Origin: Thermoanaerobaculia bacterium
Lineage (GTDB): Bacteria; Acidobacteriota; Thermoanaerobaculia; Multivoradales; UBA5704
Assembly: GCA_025937035.1 (NCBI GenBank)
Contig: JAICSG010000053.1
Span: 1 to 12,332 of the forward strand
Direction of reading: 5' to 3'
DNA: 12,332 nt
A program made the translations under genes and the position numbers. The stretch's first letter is position 1; each line of letters begins with the position of its first letter. Under the pieces are notes generated by a model, which saw only the letters and a program-made list of their open reading frames with translations, did not search any database and was not told the DNA's origin. Positions 1-10,372 of this stretch are shown here, piece by piece.

Positions 1-533
1 ACGTCATAGCGCTTGGCCCCCTGGTCGCCGATGTCGGATTGGAAGACGGCCGACCACATGGGGTCGAACTGGTGGGTGAAGGTGAAGTAGGTGCGCTTCA
101 CGTCGACCCCCGTGCCGCTGTCGCTGCTCTTGACGCCGGTGGCGTCGTCCTTGTTGCTCTTGCTGGAAGCGTCGGCGTAGACGCGGATGCCGAATTTATT
201 GGCCGGATAGTCGGCTGCCTTGGCCGCCTTCGGGGTCGGCCGCTCGTAGGCCGGCAGGTTGTGCTTGAAGAGGTAGAGATCCATGGCCGTGTCGTTCTCG
301 GCCACGATCGTCTCGCCGTTGGAGCCGCGGCCTTCTAGGGTGATCGCCTTCCCCATGTCGCCGTTGCTCTCCCAGGAATGGAATCTCTCGGGCGTGTTGA
401 AAACGTAGACGCGGCCGTCCTTCGCGACCTCCTGGTAATAGAGACCCGTGACCTGCGCGCGGGTGAGGGTGGCCGCCGACAGCGCCAGGACGAGCGCCAG
501 CAGGCCAGCCTTGAACAGAGCCTTTCTACACAT
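1..533 (-). CDS. Porin-like outer-membrane protein, N-terminal part (runs off left edge)
   Basis: An open frame of 177 codons from an ATG at 533 to the window edge; the C-terminus is missing. The start has an AGGAG ribosome site about 8 bases upstream. Residues 1-26 form a signal peptide (Arg/Lys start, then a Leu/Ala-rich core, ending near T-R-A before QVTGLYYQ). Residues about 27-95 form a small domain (GRVYVFNTPERF, GETIVAENDTAMDLYLF). After a Pro/Ala/Lys linker the sequence changes to alternating polar and aromatic residues (RTYFTFTHQFDPMWSAVFQ), as in the first strands of a beta-barrel. I infer an outer-membrane barrel, possibly porin-like; substrate is unknown. The Pho-box-like array upstream would fit a phosphate-related porin, but the visible part does not show OprO/OprP hallmarks I could name. 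Confidence in a real secreted gene is high, in barrel function moderate. Confidence 0.7.
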   Translation of the reverse strand, partial: MCRKALFKAGLLALVLALSAATLTRAQVTGLYYQEVAKDGRVYVFNTPERFHSWESNGDMGKAITLEGRGSNGETIVAENDTAMDLYLFKHNLPAYERPTPKAAKAADYPANKFGIRVYADASSKSNKDDATGVKSSDSGTGVDVKRTYFTFTHQFDPMWSAVFQSDIGDQGAKRYD

Positions 534-624
534 CCTGCTCTCCTTTGGATTCGATGTAACGGTCCTGAAACCGGGATGCTCAAGTGAGCCGGGCTTCAGG
601 ATAAAAACCGTCCGGAGCGACGCC

Positions 625-653
625 GCGACGGTCTTGTGACAGGCCTGCGACAG
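625..653 (-). promoter_or_regulatory. Pho-box-like array (three half-sites) upstream of the porin-like gene
   Basis: Read on the minus strand, CTGTCGC, CTGTCAC and CCGTCGC start exactly 11 bases apart (653, 642, 631), separated by 4-base spacers. The first two make CTGTCGCAGGCCTGTCAC, close to the enterobacterial Pho box (two CTGTCAT-like repeats, 11-bp period) bound by PhoB. The array ends 92 bases before the ATG at 533. A possible -10 (TTTTAT, 606-601) lies 18 bases after the last half-site. Binding by a PhoB-type regulator is inferred. Confidence 0.55.
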
Positions 654-774
654 GGTTTTTTTCAGAAATGCGGAACCGAAGAGGCGTCTGTCAGTCACGC
701 CGCTGTCACATCCCGGTTGGCTCGCTGCCAAACCCGAGATGCTGCGCTATGGGCTCGACCGGGGGTATCTCAGC

Positions 775-975
775 TCACGCCTCGGACCGGTCGCGCCGCG
801 CCCGCGGGCCGAACATCTGGCCGAGGCCCAGGGAGAGCACGGCTCCCGCCAGGATGAGCGCGAGGCCGAGCGACGCTTCCGTCAGGCCGGCGAGCAGCAG
901 CAGGGAGATCACGGCGGCCGTCAGGGCGACCACGGCGCCGGCGAGGACACGGGACGGAGTAAATCTGGCTCTCAT
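775..975 (-). CDS. Small two-helix membrane protein, 66 aa
   Basis: The ATG at 975 is preferred because AGGAG lies 6 bases upstream; a GTG at 993 in the same frame would add six residues but has no comparable site. The product is almost entirely two hydrophobic segments (about residues 10-29 and 32-50), joined by a short loop around T-E-A-S, with a positively charged N-terminus (MRARFTPSR) and a charged C-terminal tail (RARRDRSEA). No family is recognised and no catalytic motif is visible. It lies about 100 bases downstream of the orphan permease on the same strand, beyond a possible weak terminator, so it could be read through from the peptide cluster or have its own promoter. A membrane accessory or immunity role is only a guess from position. 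Confidence 0.5.
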   Translation of the reverse strand: MRARFTPSRVLAGAVVALTAAVISLLLLAGLTEASLGLALILAGAVLSLGLGQMFGPRARRDRSEA

Positions 976-1047: not shown

Positions 1048-1082
1048 AGAAAAAGCGAGCCTTCTGCGGTCAGGATCGCTTT
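1048..1082 (-). terminator. Possible intrinsic terminator after the permease gene
   Basis: On the minus strand a perfect 7-bp stem AAAGCGA/TCGCTTT (arms 1082-1076 and 1058-1052) encloses 17 bases that themselves contain CTG-ACCG-CAG, and is followed by TTCTT. It begins in the stop codon of the permease gene. Stem and T-run are modest, so termination may be partial. Confidence 0.35.
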
Positions 1083-3484
1083 CAACCCTCCGCGAGGGCG
1101 CGCACGGGGTCGATGCGGGTGACCTTGCGGGCCGGCATGTAGCCGGCCCAGAGCGCCACGGCGAGCAGGAACAGCGGCATGGTGGCGAAGGTCCAGGGGT
1201 CGAGGGGGCTGATCTCGTAGAGGGAGCTCGCGAACAGCCGCGACAGCAGGGCCCCGCCCCCCAATCCCAGAAGGAGGCCGAGGGCGATCCAGTGCGCGCT
1301 CTGCGCCAGGGGGGTCCATACCACCTCCCGGCGCTGGGCGCCGAAGGCGATGCGAATCCCGAGCTCGTGCTGTTTCTGGGAGACGGCGAACGACGTCACC
1401 CCATAGACGCCGATCAGGGCGAGCAGCAGACCGGTGACGGCGAACGCGGCCAGGATCTGGGCGTTGGCGGCGGGGCTCGCCATCTTGGCGGCGGCGAGCT
1501 CCTCCATCGTGGTCGCGTTGCCCATCAGGACCCCCTCGTCCAGCCCGCGCACCTGCCGCCGGATCTCCTCGGCCATCGTGAGGGGGTCCTTCTCGGTGTG
1601 GACCACCAGGCTGGCCGAGCCGACGAGGACCTGCGTGTAGGGGAGATAGGCCTCGGGGTGCGGCGGCGTCTGTGGGCCGACCTCGCGCAGGTCGCCGACC
1701 ACGCCCACCACCAGGCGGGGGACCGGGCTCATCCAGCCCAGGGTCACGCTCTTGCCGACGGCCTCCTCCCCCGGCCAGAGCCGGCGGGCGGCGGCGGCGT
1801 TGAGGATGACCACCGGATGGCGGTCGTCGGCGGTCTCTCCCGGCGTGAAATCGCGTCCGCGGAGCAGGGGGATCCCCAGGGTCGGGAAGTAGCCCGGGCT
1901 GACGCCGTTGAGGTCGATCTGCCAGCTCAAGGGGGTGCTGGACCGCAGCCCGACGGTGGTGCTCATGTTGCCGCCGTCCTTGAGCGGCAGGCTGGTGACC
2001 AGGGCCGCCGAGCGGACCCCCGGCCGGCCGTTCAGGGCGCGCGCGAGATCGGAGAAGAGGGCGCGGGCCCGCGCGGGGTCGCGGTAGACCGGCGCGCTGA
2101 GGTCGATCGGCAGGGCGAGCACCCGTTCGGGGCGGAAGCCGAGATCGACCCGGGAGAGGCGGACGAGGCTCCGGATCAGCACGCCGGCGCCGATCAGCAG
2201 CGCCAGGGAGAGGGCGATCTCGGCGGCCACGAGCGCGTTGCGGCTGCGGCGGCTGGAGCTGGACTCACCCGCCCGGGCGGAGCGCTCGTTGAGCATGGTG
2301 AGCAGGGGGAGGCGCGCCAGCTCCAGGAACGGCAGCAGGTCGATGAGGATGAGGGAGAGGAGCGAGACCAGCGCGGTGATCGCCACGGTCCGGCCGTCGA
2401 GGACCACCCCGGTGAGGCGGATGAGCGGCGTGGGCAGCAGGGCCACGATCACGTCCCAGGCCCAGAGGGTCAGGAGCAGGCCGAGCACGAAGGCCATGCC
2501 CACCAGGGGCAGGCTCTCCTCGAGGAGCTGGCGGAACAGCTTCCCGCGGTCGGCGCCCAGGGCGGCGCGCAGGGCCAGCTCCCGCCGCCGCACGGTGAGC
2601 TCGACCAGGCGTACGTTGGCCGCGTTGGTACAGCCGATGAGCAGCAGCAGGGCCGCCGCTCCGAGCAGCGCCAGCAGGACGGGGCGGGAGCCGGCGACGG
2701 CCACCTCGCGCAGCGGCTCCAGGCGCACGAACGTGGTCTGGCGGCTCTCCGGATGGGCGGCCGCCAGTCCTTGCGCGATCTGCCGCAGCTCCGCCGAGGC
2801 CCGCTCCCGGGTGGCGTCGTCCGCCAGGCGGGCGATCACCCGCATGCCGCGGACCCCCCGTCCCATGTAGGGCGAGCTCGCCGGCACCACGAGCGGCTTC
2901 AGCAGGTCGGCCGCGCCGACGACCACCGGCTCGTCCAGGGCGATCCGCTCGGGCAGGACGCCGACGACCGTGACCATCGTCCCGTCGAGGGAGAGGGGCC
3001 GGCCGATGACGCCCGGATCGCCGCCGAGCCGCTGTGCCCAGAGCTGGTGGCCGAGCACCGCGACCGGCTCGGCTCCGGGCTGGAAGTCCTCCGGCTGGAG
3101 GCCCCGCCCGAGCTCCGGCTTCAGGCCCAGGAGAGGGAAGAAGCCGTCGGACACCGCGGCTCCGGAGAGACGGGTGGAGTCGGCCGGCAGGCGCAGGGTG
3201 GGGCTCCAGGGGCTGGAGATGGCCATCGCCGCGAAGGCGTGGCTCTGGGCCTTCCAGCTCAGGAAATTGGGATAGGCGGCGGAGGTCCAGGCCTCCGGGC
3301 TCGCCGCGTCCGCCTCCCCGATCAGCACCAGGCGGTCCGGGGAGGGGAAGGGGAGGGCCCGCAGCAGCACCATGTCCACGATGCTGCCGACGGTGGACAT
3401 CGCGCCGATGCCCAGCGCCAGGCTGATGACGATCAGCAGGGCGAGCCTTGGCTGGTGAGCCTGCGCACTCTCGGACGGGAGCAT
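1082..3484 (-). CDS. Duplicated MacB/FtsX-type ABC permease without ATPase (acidobacterial orphan permease type)
   Basis: 800 aa from the ATG at 3484 (AGGA 5 bases upstream); a GTG at 3529 would overlap the preceding peptide gene and is less likely. The protein consists of two MacB-like halves. Half one: a membrane helix near residues 14-41 ending in S-I-V-D-M-V-L-L-R-A-L-P-F-P, an extracytoplasmic MacB_PCD-type domain, and three helices beginning around PVLLALLGAAALLLLIGCTN. Half two repeats the plan: a helix at ALVAAEIALSLALLIGAGVL, a second extracytoplasmic domain with the motif GIPLLRGRDF, and three closing helices containing GVYGVTSFAVSQ, ELGIRIAFGA and the end DPVRALAEG. That gives eight helices. 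No Walker A/B motif occurs in the protein or its neighbours, so any ATPase must be encoded elsewhere. It lies 22 bases after the Cys-rich peptide gene, so export of, or resistance to, the matured peptide is a reasonable inference; these permeases are also abundant in Acidobacteriota outside peptide clusters. Confidence 0.9.
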   Translation of the reverse strand: MLPSESAQAHQPRLALLIVISLALGIGAMSTVGSIVDMVLLRALPFPSPDRLVLIGEADAASPEAWTSAAYPNFLSWKAQSHAFAAMAISSPWSPTLRLPADSTRLSGAAVSDGFFPLLGLKPELGRGLQPEDFQPGAEPVAVLGHQLWAQRLGGDPGVIGRPLSLDGTMVTVVGVLPERIALDEPVVVGAADLLKPLVVPASSPYMGRGVRGMRVIARLADDATRERASAELRQIAQGLAAAHPESRQTTFVRLEPLREVAVAGSRPVLLALLGAAALLLLIGCTNAANVRLVELTVRRRELALRAALGADRGKLFRQLLEESLPLVGMAFVLGLLLTLWAWDVIVALLPTPLIRLTGVVLDGRTVAITALVSLLSLILIDLLPFLELARLPLLTMLNERSARAGESSSSRRSRNALVAAEIALSLALLIGAGVLIRSLVRLSRVDLGFRPERVLALPIDLSAPVYRDPARARALFSDLARALNGRPGVRSAALVTSLPLKDGGNMSTTVGLRSSTPLSWQIDLNGVSPGYFPTLGIPLLRGRDFTPGETADDRHPVVILNAAAARRLWPGEEAVGKSVTLGWMSPVPRLVVGVVGDLREVGPQTPPHPEAYLPYTQVLVGSASLVVHTEKDPLTMAEEIRRQVRGLDEGVLMGNATTMEELAAAKMASPAANAQILAAFAVTGLLLALIGVYGVTSFAVSQKQHELGIRIAFGAQRREVVWTPLAQSAHWIALGLLLGLGGGALLSRLFASSLYEISPLDPWTFATMPLFLLAVALWAGYMPARKVTRIDPVRALAEG

Positions 3485-3506
3485 CGGGGTCCTGCGCGTC
3501 CCAGTC

Positions 3507-3719
3507 TCAGATGATCTTGAACGTCCCACAGCTGAACGAGCCGCAACCGCTGAACCCGCTGCAAGTATAACTGGCGCAGGTACCGTCCGCGGCGGCGACC
3601 ATCGCCAGGCGCTCGTCGAGCGCCGCCAGCGGGTCTCCGGTCACCAGGCTGAAGAGCTCGTCGTTGAGGCTGACGATCTCCTCGATCGGTTCCCGCCCGC
3701 CCCTCTGGTGTTTCTTCAT
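3507..3719 (-). CDS. Cys-rich RiPP precursor peptide, 70 aa
   Basis: The ATG at 3719 has a strong GGAGGG site 7 bases upstream; a TTG two codons earlier lies within that site and is rejected. Residues 1-46 look like a leader: a charged N-terminus (MKKHQRGGREP), then an acidic amphipathic stretch (IEEIVSLNDELFSLVTGD) and LAALDERLAMVAAADG. Residues 47-70 look like a core with four cysteines at 48, 53, 59 and 64, spaced C-x4-C-x5-C-x4-C. The core contains two copies of C-[AG]-S-[YF]-[ST]-C (CASYTC and CGSFSC) separated by SGFSG and followed by GTFKII. It sits 21 bases downstream of a radical SAM/SPASM gene, whose families often install thioether or C-C crosslinks in such peptides. No named precursor family is recognised; thioether crosslinking is inference. 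An alternative is an unmodified secreted peptide, but there is no signal peptide. Confidence 0.8.
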   Translation of the reverse strand: MKKHQRGGREPIEEIVSLNDELFSLVTGDPLAALDERLAMVAAADGTCASYTCSGFSGCGSFSCGTFKII

Positions 3720-3740
3720 GAACAATCCCTCCTGGTCGTG

Positions 3741-5243
3741 TCAGAGATCGCAGAAGGCATCCGGCCTGTCGGCACAGGCCTTTCCTTCCACATGATCGAG
3801 ATAAGCCTCCGCCACGGAGGCGCGGAAGCGGTGCGCGAAACCGTCGCAATAGCTCCGGTAGAAGTCCCCCCCGGAGCGGTCCGCCGCCAGCACGGCGCAG
3901 CCGCCGCCGCAGAACAGGTTGTAGCGGCACTTGAGGCAGACCGGGTTGGAGGCGACCGTGCGCCCCTGCCAGAGGGCCCGGAGATCGAAATTGAAGCGTG
4001 CCTCGGAGCCCTCGTCGACGTGGCCGATGCGGACCTTCTCGTCCCCGGTCTTCTCCCAGCAGGCATAGATGTCGCCGAAGGGGTCGAAGATGTACATCCC
4101 CGTGTGCGCCGAGCAGAAGCTGGGCTTGAAGGCCGGCAGGCCCCGCTGGGAGAAGATCCGGCGAGCCTGGTTGCGCAGGCCGTCGTCCTGCCGCCCGAGC
4201 ACGGAGACCGCCGGATGGCTCTCGCGCATCGCCGTGAGCTGGCGGTCGAGCTCCCAGGTGTTGAACGTGGTGCCGGCGTCGGTCTTGCCGTTCGAGGCGC
4301 GGATCGGCGCCACCTGGGAGGCGAAATTCGGATAGCGGTCCCACCCCTGGGCGGCGATCTCCTCGGCCAGGGCGGCCAGGCCGTGGAGATTGCTGCGGTC
4401 CACGTTGGTGCGGACTGCCACCACGATCCCCCGGTCGAGCGCCATCTTGACGTTGCGGGCGATCCGCTCCCACGACCCCTGGCCGTCGGCGTAGACCCGC
4501 CGCCGGTCGTGCTCGCCCGGCGGGCCGTCGAGGGTGATCTGGACGCTGCCCAGGAGACCGGGGCTCAGCAGGTCCTCGTAGGCGTCGAGCTCGGTGCCGT
4601 TCGAGATCGCCCAGAACCGGGCCTGCCCGCGCTCCAGGCCCCGCCGGATGACGTGCTCCACCAGCGGGCGGTTGGCCGCCAGCAGCGGCTCGCCGCCGAA
4701 GAACCCGATCTCGACCCGGGGCTCGGCGTCGGCCGGGATGCCGTGCATCTCCTCGATCTGCGGCATCGCCGCGAACAGCCGGTCGGCCATCTCCGGGGTC
4801 ATCCGCCGCAGCAGATGGGCGAAGCGGCCGTCCGTGCGCATGTGGTCCTGGAAGCAGTAGCCGCAGCGCAGGTTGCAGTCATAGGTCGGCATGAAGAGGT
4901 AGGTGGGCCAGCGCCGCAGGTGGAGGGCGTGGAGCTTCTCCACGTAGCGGGTGAAGAAGGCCTCCTCCTCCTCGCGGCTCATCGGCGTCAGATACCCCCG
5001 CCGCTGGAGCACCTCGATCGTCGCCTCCGTGGGCGGCACGGCCTCGCCGGCCGGGGAAGCCGGCTCGGGGGTCCACTCGCCATAGAGCGGCTTGGGCGGA
5101 CGGCCCACCTCCAGGGAGCGCACCCAGGTGGCGACCCGCCGCGAGACGCGATCGAACGCGCCCGTATAGGTGTGGACGAGGAGCATCTCCTCCTCGTTGC
5201 CGGGCAGGTCGACGTAGATGGTGTAGCTGCTGGTGCGCAGCAC
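3741..5243 (-). CDS. Radical SAM/SPASM peptide maturase
   Basis: 500 aa from a GTG at 5243, with a purine-rich AAAGGGGAG site just upstream. Residues 1-100 form an N-terminal region that may contact the peptide leader. The radical SAM core begins with MPTYDCNLRCGYC, placing the CxxxCxxC cluster ligands at C123, C127 and C130, followed by the GGEPLL motif (F-F-G-G-E-P-L-L) that binds S-adenosylmethionine. The C-terminal SPASM domain is complete: C377-x12-G390-x4-C395, then C436-x2-C439-x5-C445-x3-C449 and C466, enough for two auxiliary [4Fe-4S] clusters. Further cysteines near the end (C490, C498) may be structural. The following gene encodes a Cys-rich precursor, so the natural substrate is inferred to be that peptide. 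Anaerobic sulfatase maturases share this architecture, but no sulfatase gene is nearby. The chemistry (sactipeptide, ranthipeptide, C-C linkage) cannot be decided from sequence alone. Confidence 0.93.
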   Translation of the reverse strand: MLRTSSYTIYVDLPGNEEEMLLVHTYTGAFDRVSRRVATWVRSLEVGRPPKPLYGEWTPEPASPAGEAVPPTEATIEVLQRRGYLTPMSREEEEAFFTRYVEKLHALHLRRWPTYLFMPTYDCNLRCGYCFQDHMRTDGRFAHLLRRMTPEMADRLFAAMPQIEEMHGIPADAEPRVEIGFFGGEPLLAANRPLVEHVIRRGLERGQARFWAISNGTELDAYEDLLSPGLLGSVQITLDGPPGEHDRRRVYADGQGSWERIARNVKMALDRGIVVAVRTNVDRSNLHGLAALAEEIAAQGWDRYPNFASQVAPIRASNGKTDAGTTFNTWELDRQLTAMRESHPAVSVLGRQDDGLRNQARRIFSQRGLPAFKPSFCSAHTGMYIFDPFGDIYACWEKTGDEKVRIGHVDEGSEARFNFDLRALWQGRTVASNPVCLKCRYNLFCGGGCAVLAADRSGGDFYRSYCDGFAHRFRASVAEAYLDHVEGKACADRPDAFCDL

Positions 5244-5461: not shown

Positions 5462-6139
5462 TTATCCTGCCTTCAGCAGGTCGCTGCCGTGGGAGTGGCG
5501 GATGTCCCGCCCCTCGACGTAGTAGATGACGTCCTCGGCGATGTTGGTGGCGTGGTCGGCGATGCGCTCCAGGTTTCGCGAAACGAGGAGCAGGTGGAGG
5601 GCGCGGCTGACCGTCTTGGGGTCCTCGATCATGTAGGTCAGCAGCTCGCGGAAGATCTGCTTGTAGAGGCCGTCCACGGCGTCGTCCCCCTTGCAGACGT
5701 CGGTGGCGAGCTGGGCGTCGCGGCGCACGAAGGCGTCGAGGCTCTTGCGCACCATGTCCTGCACGAGCCGCGACATGTGGGGGAGGTCGATGTAGGGCTT
5801 GAGCGGCGGCTGCTCGTTGAGCTGCTCCACCGACTGGGCGATGTTCACCGCCGAGTCGCCGATCCTTTCGAGATCGCTGTTGATCTTCATCACCGCCACC
5901 AGGAAGCGCAGGTCGACCGCCGTCGGCTGCTTGGTGCCCAGGATCAGATGGCAGGCCTCGTCGATCTCGATCTCCAGGTGGTCGACCTGATTGTCCTCCT
6001 CGATCACCTCGGTGCAGAGCTGGTTGTTGCGGTCGAGCAGCGCCTGCGTCGCCTTGGCGACCATCCCCTCCACCATCCCTCCCATCTTGAGGAGGGCCTG
6101 GCGTACCCGGTCGAGATCCTGATCCAGTCGTCGTTCCAT
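5462..6139 (-). CDS. phoU: PhoU, phosphate signalling protein
   Basis: 225 aa, the usual PhoU length, from an ATG at 6139 with AAAGGA 5 bases upstream. The two PhoU repeats are clear: residues about 15-105 containing EEDNQVDHLEIEIDEAC and FLVAVMKINSDLERIGD with NIA, and about 120-210 containing CKGDDAVDGLYKQI and LLVSRNLERIADHATNIAED. The E-R-I-[GA]-D plus N-I-A motifs are the family's metal-binding and surface signature. PhoU acts in the cytoplasm, linking the Pst transporter to the PhoR/PhoB sensor system and restraining Pho regulon expression when phosphate is plentiful. No pst genes lie beside it in this window. A Pho-box-like array ends 48 bases before the start, suggesting that it is itself phosphate regulated. 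Confidence 0.95.
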   Translation of the reverse strand: MERRLDQDLDRVRQALLKMGGMVEGMVAKATQALLDRNNQLCTEVIEEDNQVDHLEIEIDEACHLILGTKQPTAVDLRFLVAVMKINSDLERIGDSAVNIAQSVEQLNEQPPLKPYIDLPHMSRLVQDMVRKSLDAFVRRDAQLATDVCKGDDAVDGLYKQIFRELLTYMIEDPKTVSRALHLLLVSRNLERIADHATNIAEDVIYYVEGRDIRHSHGSDLLKAG

Positions 6140-9480: not shown

Positions 9481-9666
9481 ATGAAGAGAAAGAAGAACGA
9501 TCGTAAGAAGCTGGGACTGGCCAAGGAGACGATCGCGCCTCTGGAGGCCAAGGCCCTTGACGGGGTCGCCGGCGCGGTGACCATCTGTCCGAAGGAGAGC
9601 AACCAGATCTGCAGCATCCAGCACACCTGTGTGAGCTGCGTCTACACGGCGGATACCTGCGCCTAG
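9481..9666 (+). CDS. Class-I-lanthipeptide-like precursor, 61 aa
   Basis: The ATG at 9481 has GAGGAGG 5 bases upstream. The very basic start MKRKKNDRKK is followed by LGLAKETIAPLEAKALDGV, which resembles the LxLxKETIxxL leader of class I lanthipeptide and related natural-product precursors, and by GVAGA where a leader could be cleaved. The remaining residues hold cysteines at 36, 44, 50, 53 and 60 with Ser/Thr at 34, 40, 45, 49, 52, 56 and 59, fit for lanthionine rings or for disulfides. No LanB/LanC dehydratase-cyclase or protease is in the window, so modifying enzymes, if any, act in trans; the radical SAM enzyme 4 kb away is another candidate. A GC hairpin follows the stop. A possible -10 (TACGAT) lies at 9449-9454 without a good -35. 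Coding status is supported by the ribosome site and leader; the product class is inferred. Confidence 0.75.
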   Translation: MKRKKNDRKKLGLAKETIAPLEAKALDGVAGAVTICPKESNQICSIQHTCVSCVYTADTCA

Positions 9667-9756: not shown

Positions 9757-9790
9757 CCATCCGCCCGGGTGAGATGGGAAGCCGCGCGCG

Positions 9791-9883: not shown

Positions 9884-9901
9884 TGATCAAGGAGAATGCT
9901 C

Positions 9902-10372
9902 ATGACTCACAGCATGCGGTACACCCTGACCTGTACGGGCGCGGCGCTCCTCTTCCTCGTGGCTTCGGCGGCGTGGGCGGGCAACAACGGGAAGGTGCGC
10001 CAGTCCCCCAGCGTGGACCAGGAGCTGGTGGACGCCGGATTCTTCAAGCTGGTGACGGGCAAGGCGGCGGCCTGCTGCGTCCCCGACGGCAGCGTGGACG
10101 ACACGCTCGGCATGTGGTCCTGCTGCAGCGGGTTCGCGGTGAGCGGCAGCACGGTCTGCGCCAATCCGGCGGACTACGGCACGACCTGGACCAGTTGCCG
10201 CCAGGTCTGCGGCACCGCGCCGGTGAACGGCTGCATCCCGTCCGGCGGTTGGGACGACACGCTCTCCAACACCCACTGCTGCAGCGGCGCGGCGGTCCCG
10301 GGGAGCACCTGGTGCCTCAACCCCGCCGACTACGGCACCAGTTGGAAGTCCTGCGTCCAGCAGTGCCAATAG
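9902..10372 (+). CDS. Secreted protein of two tandem Cys-rich modules, 156 aa
   Basis: The ATG at 9902 has AAGGAG 7 bases upstream; the ATG at 9896 is too close to that site. Residues 1-26 are a signal peptide (core TGAALLFLVASAAWA, cleavage after A26). A short linker (27-55) carries VDQELVDAGFFKLVTG. Two homologous modules follow: 59-103 and 111-155. Each reads C-[VI]-P-x-G-x2-D-D-T-L-x4-CC-S-G-x-A-V-x-G-S-T-x-C-x-N-P-A-D-Y-G-T-x-W-x-S-C-x3-C, giving six cysteines per module, with one extra (C58) before the first. The pattern suggests compact disulfide-bonded domains, comparable in style to small toxin or knottin folds, but no named family is recognised. It acts outside the cytoplasmic membrane. 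Its promoter, structured leader and terminator make a self-contained unit next to another Cys-rich peptide gene. Alternatives are an adhesin-like or sugar-binding module. Confidence 0.85.
   Translation: MTHSMRYTLTCTGAALLFLVASAAWAGNNGKVRQSPSVDQELVDAGFFKLVTGKAAACCVPDGSVDDTLGMWSCCSGFAVSGSTVCANPADYGTTWTSCRQVCGTAPVNGCIPSGGWDDTLSNTHCCSGAAVPGSTWCLNPADYGTSWKSCVQQCQ

Follow-up and report, generated by a model that had tools for sequence, protein, structure and literature searches.

A maturase, precursor and permease cassette from a soil Thermoanaerobaculia bacterium, with a candidate C-x-x-Z thioether pattern

The window, that is, the whole stretch of DNA analysed here (12,332 nucleotides; contig JAICSG010000053.1 of assembly GCA_025937035.1, from a soil bacterium of the Thermoanaerobaculia, genome G000), carries a compact three-gene set. 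It encodes a radical S-adenosylmethionine (SAM)/SPASM maturase, the precursor of a ribosomally synthesised and post-translationally modified peptide (RiPP) and a duplicated MacB/FtsX permease of the ADOP family, in this order on the minus strand (Table 1). The genes are separated by gaps of 21 bp and 22 bp. This layout, with a Cys-rich precursor between the other two genes, had been described in an earlier sequence-only reading, and is confirmed by the coordinates and the domain models. The permease start was taken as the ATG at 3484, which gives the 22 bp gap; the first GTG of the open reading frame (ORF), at 3529, would overlap the precursor. Between the window and the closest relative compared, genome G454, dN (non-synonymous divergence) is 0.175 and dS (synonymous divergence) is 0.428.

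Table 1. Position, strand and properties of the cassette genes, the precursor segments and the adjoining small ORF in the window.
Feature	Position	Strand	Remarks
Radical SAM/SPASM maturase	3741-5243	-	500 aa, GTG start
RiPP precursor	3507-3719	-	70 aa; homologues found; without NCBIfam family
Precursor leader, about residues 1-42, IVSLNDELFS motif	3594-3719	-	boundary approximate
Precursor core, about residues 43-70, four C-x-x-[F/Y] units	3510-3593	-	
ADOP-family duplicated MacB/FtsX permease	1082-3484	-	800 aa from ATG; without ATPase
Small hydrophobic ORF downstream of the permease	775-975	-	66 aa from ATG

The maturase and its partner precursor

The maturase matches PF04055 with 46.4 bits (cut-off 29.5) and the SPASM model TIGR04085 with 47.7 bits (cut-off 27); the Pfam SPASM model PF13186 has no match in the window. 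Its CX3CX2C radical SAM site is formed by C123, C127 and C130, and its SPASM region contains the complete set of seven cysteines (C377, C395, C436, C439, C445, C449 and C466), the combination that defines radical SAM/SPASM peptide maturases. All ten cysteines are invariant across 49 aligned sequences. The structure model has a predicted local distance difference test (pLDDT) score of 88.1 and is matched best by CteB (entries 5WGG and 5WHY), with the amino-terminal parts of the two proteins aligned. In CteB, this part binds the leader peptide. Among 7997 candidates scored, 1173 homologues were obtained at E ≤ 0.001, the outer ones not all belonging to the same family, while the window genome contains a single copy at this threshold. 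The maturase family is found in Acidobacteriota, Cyanobacteria, Eremiobacterota and Rheinheimera.

The precursor consists of a leader and a short core, with its four cysteines located within the last 23 residues. It has no NCBIfam family and only a sub-threshold Pfam match. Profile searches for precursors returned 173 sequences, 120 of them listed, and in a second round 53. The leader type of the window is present in 57 of the 138 precursor sequences examined, and all of these except one shortened entry have four core cysteines; the precursor ORF is therefore more than a chance reading frame. In 50 of these 57 cores the cysteines are spaced by 5, 6 and 5 residues. The leader is conserved and the core variable, and the gene lies beside that of a modifying enzyme, as is general for RiPPs: among the 43 window-type precursors of exactly 70 residues, mean pairwise identity is 0.87 in the leader (residues 11-42) and 0.55 in the core without its cysteines. 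An SLN/ESLN-like motif, I[EV]SLN, recurs in the leaders of most other precursor types. At the other extreme of core size, some acidobacterial precursors (P0246, P0257, P0275 and related sequences) have cores with up to 14 cysteines, arranged as near-continuous C-x-x-[N/D/L] tetrads. Two similar sequences, P0247 and P0249, bear the precomputed label PF27846.1, so some of the tetrad-repeat precursors may already belong to a Pfam family; the local Pfam copy assigned neither of the two to any family. No known precursor family matches, a hit of TIGR04149 to one of 16 sequences (E 0.027) being at noise level.

Pairing of the two genes was assessed at loci chosen by their maturase only, 28 distinct ones of at least 35% identity from four phyla. 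One of them, L014, was left out of the count, its sequence ending 325 bases downstream of the match, and thirteen more distant loci (L022-L034, 19 to 36% identical over the best segment) are in no count. A Cys-containing precursor is present downstream on the same strand in 23 of the 27 assessable loci: 12 of 13 acidobacterial, 6 of 9 cyanobacterial, the sole Eremiobacterota and all four Rheinheimera loci. From the end of the maturase match to the first precursor codon there are at most 300 bases in 20 of these 23, and 425, 1631 and 3379 bases in the others. Conversely, the window-type precursor occurs in four of 148 genomes of the class, all four with the maturase. These counts support the proposal of the sequence-only reading that the maturase modifies the adjoining Cys-rich peptide. 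Two outcomes that would have spoken against this proposal, lack of conservation of the precursor and other neighbours as a rule, did not appear: close relatives have kept the precursor, and other neighbours are restricted to three loci from Nostocales, which have a halogenase and an oxygenase in place of a precursor. Locus L059 contains two near-identical leader-like peptides, near 9782 and 10080, with a further radical SAM/SPASM gene nearby. Among the openly licensed papers listed, no title or opening of an abstract describes this maturase and precursor family, although one may have escaped the search.

The residue three positions after cysteine

In 56 window-type precursors, the residue at position +3 of the core cysteines is Phe 187 times, Tyr 32 times and Leu five times, accounting for 224 of 224 positions, and is never acidic. 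The corresponding pairs in the window peptide are C48-Y51, C53-F56, C59-F62 and C64-F67. The other precursor types, 80 sequences reduced to 55 representatives with cores less than 0.7 similar, have a wider choice: 123 of 145 non-Cys residues at +3 belong to the set F, Y, H, N, D, K, R and L, where 39.8 are expected from shuffling the non-Cys core residues. In these representatives, position +3 has an information content of 1.23 bits, and the next best offset, -2, has 0.52 bits, mostly due to Trp. The counts of Phe, Tyr, Asn, Lys and His were reached in none of 2000 shuffles, that of Arg in one, that of Leu in 19 and that of Asp in 308. Residues that are depleted (observed/expected) are Gly (9/27.4), Ala (2/15.3), Ser (2/11.4), Thr (4/11.8), Val (0/7.6), Ile (1/7.2), Pro (1/7.5) and Glu (1/7.3).

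The rule holds in cores with one to 14 cysteines and irregular spacing, and is shared by relatives from several other bacterial phyla. In 21 cores that adjoin a maturase, taken as one or two per locus and not as every copy, 60 of 66 residues at +3 fit, or 44 of 50 when the four window-type cores are left out. The second precursor search gave 52 new precursors, of which 38 were removed for their similarity to one another or to sequences of the first set. In the 14 representatives left, 133 of 139 residues fit, against 50.0 expected and with no value as high in 1000 shuffles; in unbroken tetrads position -1 is also high, being the +3 position of the previous unit. Both the gene pairing and the sequence rule are solid. 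Since residues with a beta-methylene group stand at a fixed distance from the cysteine, with few beta-branched or small ones, four-residue rings closed by beta-thioethers are predicted. In this way the rule turns an unannotated maturase family into a concrete and directly testable chemical prediction.

The permease and accessory genes

The permease is a full-length member of the ADOP family (TIGR03434, 751.7 bits; cut-off 622.3) and contains MacB_PCD and FtsX domains only. A tree was calculated of 35 ADOP sequences, namely the best-scoring ones of four genomes and those near maturases, in which bootstrap values are not fully settled. The maturase-linked permeases of G000, G454, G455 and G456, which represent two genera, form one clade with 100/100 support, and this co-inheritance bears out the earlier assignment of the permease to the cassette. 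The only other member of the clade in the tree is a second ADOP of G454, located on contig C885. A second precursor of G454 (locus L005, 6030-6437), truncated where its contig ends, starts directly behind the first permease, and downstream of the C885 permease there is a copy of the small hydrophobic ORF of the window (81% identity; L061/L090). The contigs are not joined, but a tandem precursor-permease arrangement would account for this. The small ORF has no strong match elsewhere among the loci searched and is a possible, unproven cassette member. In G455, a further ORF lies between precursor and permease. The system is thus three-gene, as the sequence-only reading called it, in the window itself, and not in these two relatives. 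ADOPs also lie near the maturase in another acidobacterial family (L052, L054 and, as a fragment left unplaced, L053).

The permease may move or otherwise handle the peptide, although we know of no ADOP with a demonstrated RiPP role. It could also be a bystander from a very expanded family, with no role in a peptide system, which we consider unlikely but with a real chance of being correct. The genomes examined contain 26 to 43 ADOP-like matches each at E ≤ 0.001, fragments included, no ORF of the ADOP cluster was seen at the cyanobacterial and Rheinheimera loci except L012, and the divergence of the permease is not consistently unusual, all of which would fit a bystander. A chance neighbour would be harder to reconcile with the single clade formed by the linked permeases of four genomes, with the second precursor behind the first G454 permease and with the second permease of the clade, on another contig, being accompanied by the small ORF of the window. 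Faster evolution of the permease through contact with the variable core was also considered. Between G000 and G454 it is 74.7% identical, where two other ADOP pairs reach 94.4% and 92.6%. Between G000 and G455, however, its identity is 63.3% compared to 69.3%, and this idea is not relied on. The link between precursor and permease is a first handle on the ADOP family, of which these genomes have many members; if the link is functional, this large orphan family would gain its first substrate.

The sequence-only reading also noted the lack of a dedicated peptidase. This stands for the genus of the window, where an M50-like peptidase was undetected in all three draft genomes, and fails elsewhere: such a peptidase accompanies the maturase in five of ten genomes (G456, at two loci, G410, G411, G412 and G008), and six of the seven peptidase matches in the ten genomes are on maturase contigs. 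A search with positive controls found none of the family's M50-like peptidases in the drafts G000, G454, G455, G246 and G368. Other members of the maturase family carry a squalene-cyclase-like protein of about 700 residues, UDP-glycosyltransferases, C39-ABC exporters, or a halogenase and an oxygenase. With a peptidase and further accessory genes present elsewhere, what the window contains is a reduced form of a more extensive system. At the Nostocales loci L013, L015 and L016, the maturase homologues adjoin a tryptophan halogenase and a 2OG-Fe(II) oxygenase, and possibly have another substrate. At L051 (G455:C32), a class III-type lanthionine synthetase with RamC_N, kinase and LanC-like parts (10477-13206) is located about 1 kb downstream of the maturase, and an ATP-binding cassette transporter about 3.7 kb downstream.

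The next same-strand gene upstream of the maturase is phoU (5462-6139, minus strand), and the cassette sits between it and the start of a gene that by eye encodes a porin-like protein (3-731, minus strand). The G454 contig with the second permease (L090) contains genes that read, again by eye, as pstA and pstB, which hints at a phosphate-linked location. Two plus-strand genes lie further along the window. A 61-residue peptide (9481-9666) matches the class I lanthipeptide leader model NF038153 with 31.3 bits (cut-off 22); no modifying enzyme was recognised beside it, and a LanB-type dehydratase is on another contig, G000:C502. A 158-residue, probably secreted Cys-rich protein (9896-10372) appears by eye to have two similar halves, and no NCBIfam or Pfam model matches it above threshold.

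Proposed chemistry and comparison with known systems

Taken together, we consider it probable that the cassette belongs to an unassigned SPASM family that joins each core cysteine, by a radical-made thioether, to the residue three positions further on, likely at its beta carbon. The maturase would bind the precursor leader, which in most types carries the I[EV]SLN motif, and would use SAM and its auxiliary iron-sulfur clusters to abstract a hydrogen from the residue at +3 of each cysteine. Closure of a thioether from this residue to the cysteine, most likely at the beta carbon, would turn the core into a row of four-residue C-x-x-Z rings, of which the window peptide would have four. The co-inherited ADOP permease, together with an ATPase whose gene lies elsewhere, could then handle the mature peptide in export, insertion or self-protection. 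In the genus of the window a different protease may cleave off the leader, or the leader may stay attached. A wider proposal is made more tentatively: that this is a cross-phylum RiPP class with tandem C-x-x-Z thioether rings, broad acceptors (F, Y, H, N, D, K, R and L) and a direction opposite to that of NxxC peptides, with precursor and ADOP permease as one evolving unit in the family of the window.

Several observations weigh against this interpretation or its parts. The set of Z residues was fixed after the first precursor set had been seen, 12 of the 14 representatives of the second search are of one tandem tetrad-repeat type already represented by L056, and the representatives share ancestry, which the shuffles ignore. 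In the first set, 22 of 145 residues at +3 fall outside the set, nine of them Gly, and Asp alone is not enriched (12, with 8.8 expected); a beta-carbon acceptor leaves the shortage of Glu and Gln unexplained. Inspection of the small ORFs at the three Nostocales loci yielded no precursor candidate. The leader-like peptides of the acidobacterial locus L059, where the maturase is 35% identical, lack cysteine, so that the wider maturase family is not bound to Cys chemistry. The Rheinheimera precursors lack the SLN leader motif, the ADOPs near the maturase in L051, L052, L054, L055 and L058 are outside the clade, and the peptidase matches to PF02163 reach 18 to 21 bits, below the cut-off of 27.2.

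The same Cys i and residue i+3 pair could be linked at the alpha carbon instead, which would make the product a sactipeptide. Radical SAM peptide maturases make both alpha and non-alpha thioethers (PMC8326336), and sequence and fold cannot tell the two apart. An alpha acceptor need not require the depletion of Val, Ile, Thr, Ala, Ser and Gly at +3, however. PapB and CefB also rank among the nearest models, the nearest fold is that of CteB, and together these points make an alpha linkage improbable. Carbon-carbon or aryl links, as in a three-residue cyclophane of the aromatic-x-Cys type, would make the +3 pattern secondary. The Trp at -2 of cysteine, enriched in the other types (26 of 146) and a further point against the thioether proposal, would suit such links, as would the Phe or Tyr at -2 of two of the four window-type cysteines; it may also point to a second modification at the leader-core border. 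Only these two of the four have an aromatic residue at -2, while all four have Phe, Tyr or Leu at +3, the non-aromatic Asn, Lys, Asp and Arg are common at +3 in general, and the cyclophane maturase models score far below their cut-offs (YhhB 46.6 bits, cut-off 445; FxsB 36.9 bits, cut-off 370), so cyclophanes are very doubtful.

Finally, the cysteines might remain free or be paired, in metal binding or disulfides, with the maturase doing other work such as epimerisation and the +3 residue reflecting peptide folding. Metal chelation has been proposed for another Cys-rich RiPP from uncultured soil bacteria (PMC8692599), and of 172 listed precursors, 15 have only one cysteine after residue 28, which allows at most one ring each and is too few for several. 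With one cysteine, a core has no partner for an internal disulfide either, yet several such cores keep the rule (for example WICGIYDN, with Tyr at +3), and the rule is kept irrespective of cysteine number and spacing. Free or paired cysteines thus appear quite improbable, and the beta-thioether at +3 is retained as the preferred assignment.

The sequence-only reading could not place the system in a named RiPP class, and this is borne out: filing it under one was rejected, as no NCBIfam maturase model reaches its cut-off, all being far below, and no precursor family matches. The nearest named relatives, or by their names models for regular-Cys targets, are TIGR04463 (rSAM_vs_C_rich; 113.9 bits, cut-off 525), NF038107 (CefB, Cys-every-fifth; 103.5 bits, cut-off 600) and TIGR04115 (CXXX-repeat target; 50 bits, cut-off 350), and by these bit scores the window maturase is not a member of any. 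The likeness to regular-Cys targets lies in the 5, 6, 5 spacing of the window core and the near-continuous tetrads of some others. The ADOP family as a whole provides a further comparison, from which the window permease is set apart by its linkage to, and co-inheritance with, a RiPP cassette. The maturase with M50-like peptidase found elsewhere in the family presumably resembles the epipeptide Yyd cluster; the window differs from that cluster in its genus lacking a detectable peptidase, in its Cys-rich core and in the ADOP type of its permease.

The ranthipeptides, namely freyrasin with PapB, NxxcA, and SCIFF with CteB, are most alike, sharing a SPASM maturase that has the cysteines for two auxiliary clusters, a Cys-containing core and a short spacing, and CteB is the nearest solved structure. 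SCIFF peptides have six cysteines compared to four in the window core, and their maturase model TIGR03974 gives 68.8 bits (cut-off 425). In C-x3-D motifs, PapB links Cys with the Asp beta carbon, and it also accepts other spacings (PMC9413430). Its acceptor is an Asp or Glu at +4, while that of the window type is at +3 and never acidic, the +4 residues being mainly Thr, Lys, Ser and Gly and not following C-x3-D/E; the PapB model NF047865 gives 111.1 bits (cut-off 340). In NxxcA, Cys23 is linked to Asn20 through a beta-thioether (PMC8326336), at the same distance as proposed here and in the opposite direction, the acceptor lying three residues before the cysteine. Asn at -3 is not a feature of the family, occurring at 11 of 156 positions with 9.8 expected (a set with one window-type row), or at 11 of 149 non-Cys positions without that row. 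By the tests run, the cassette stands outside the named families, as a new form among the SPASM thioether-RiPP systems, and if the proposed chemistry is correct, one enzyme family would close four-residue rings on eight acceptor residues, compared to Asp and Glu for PapB, which would be useful for peptide engineering.
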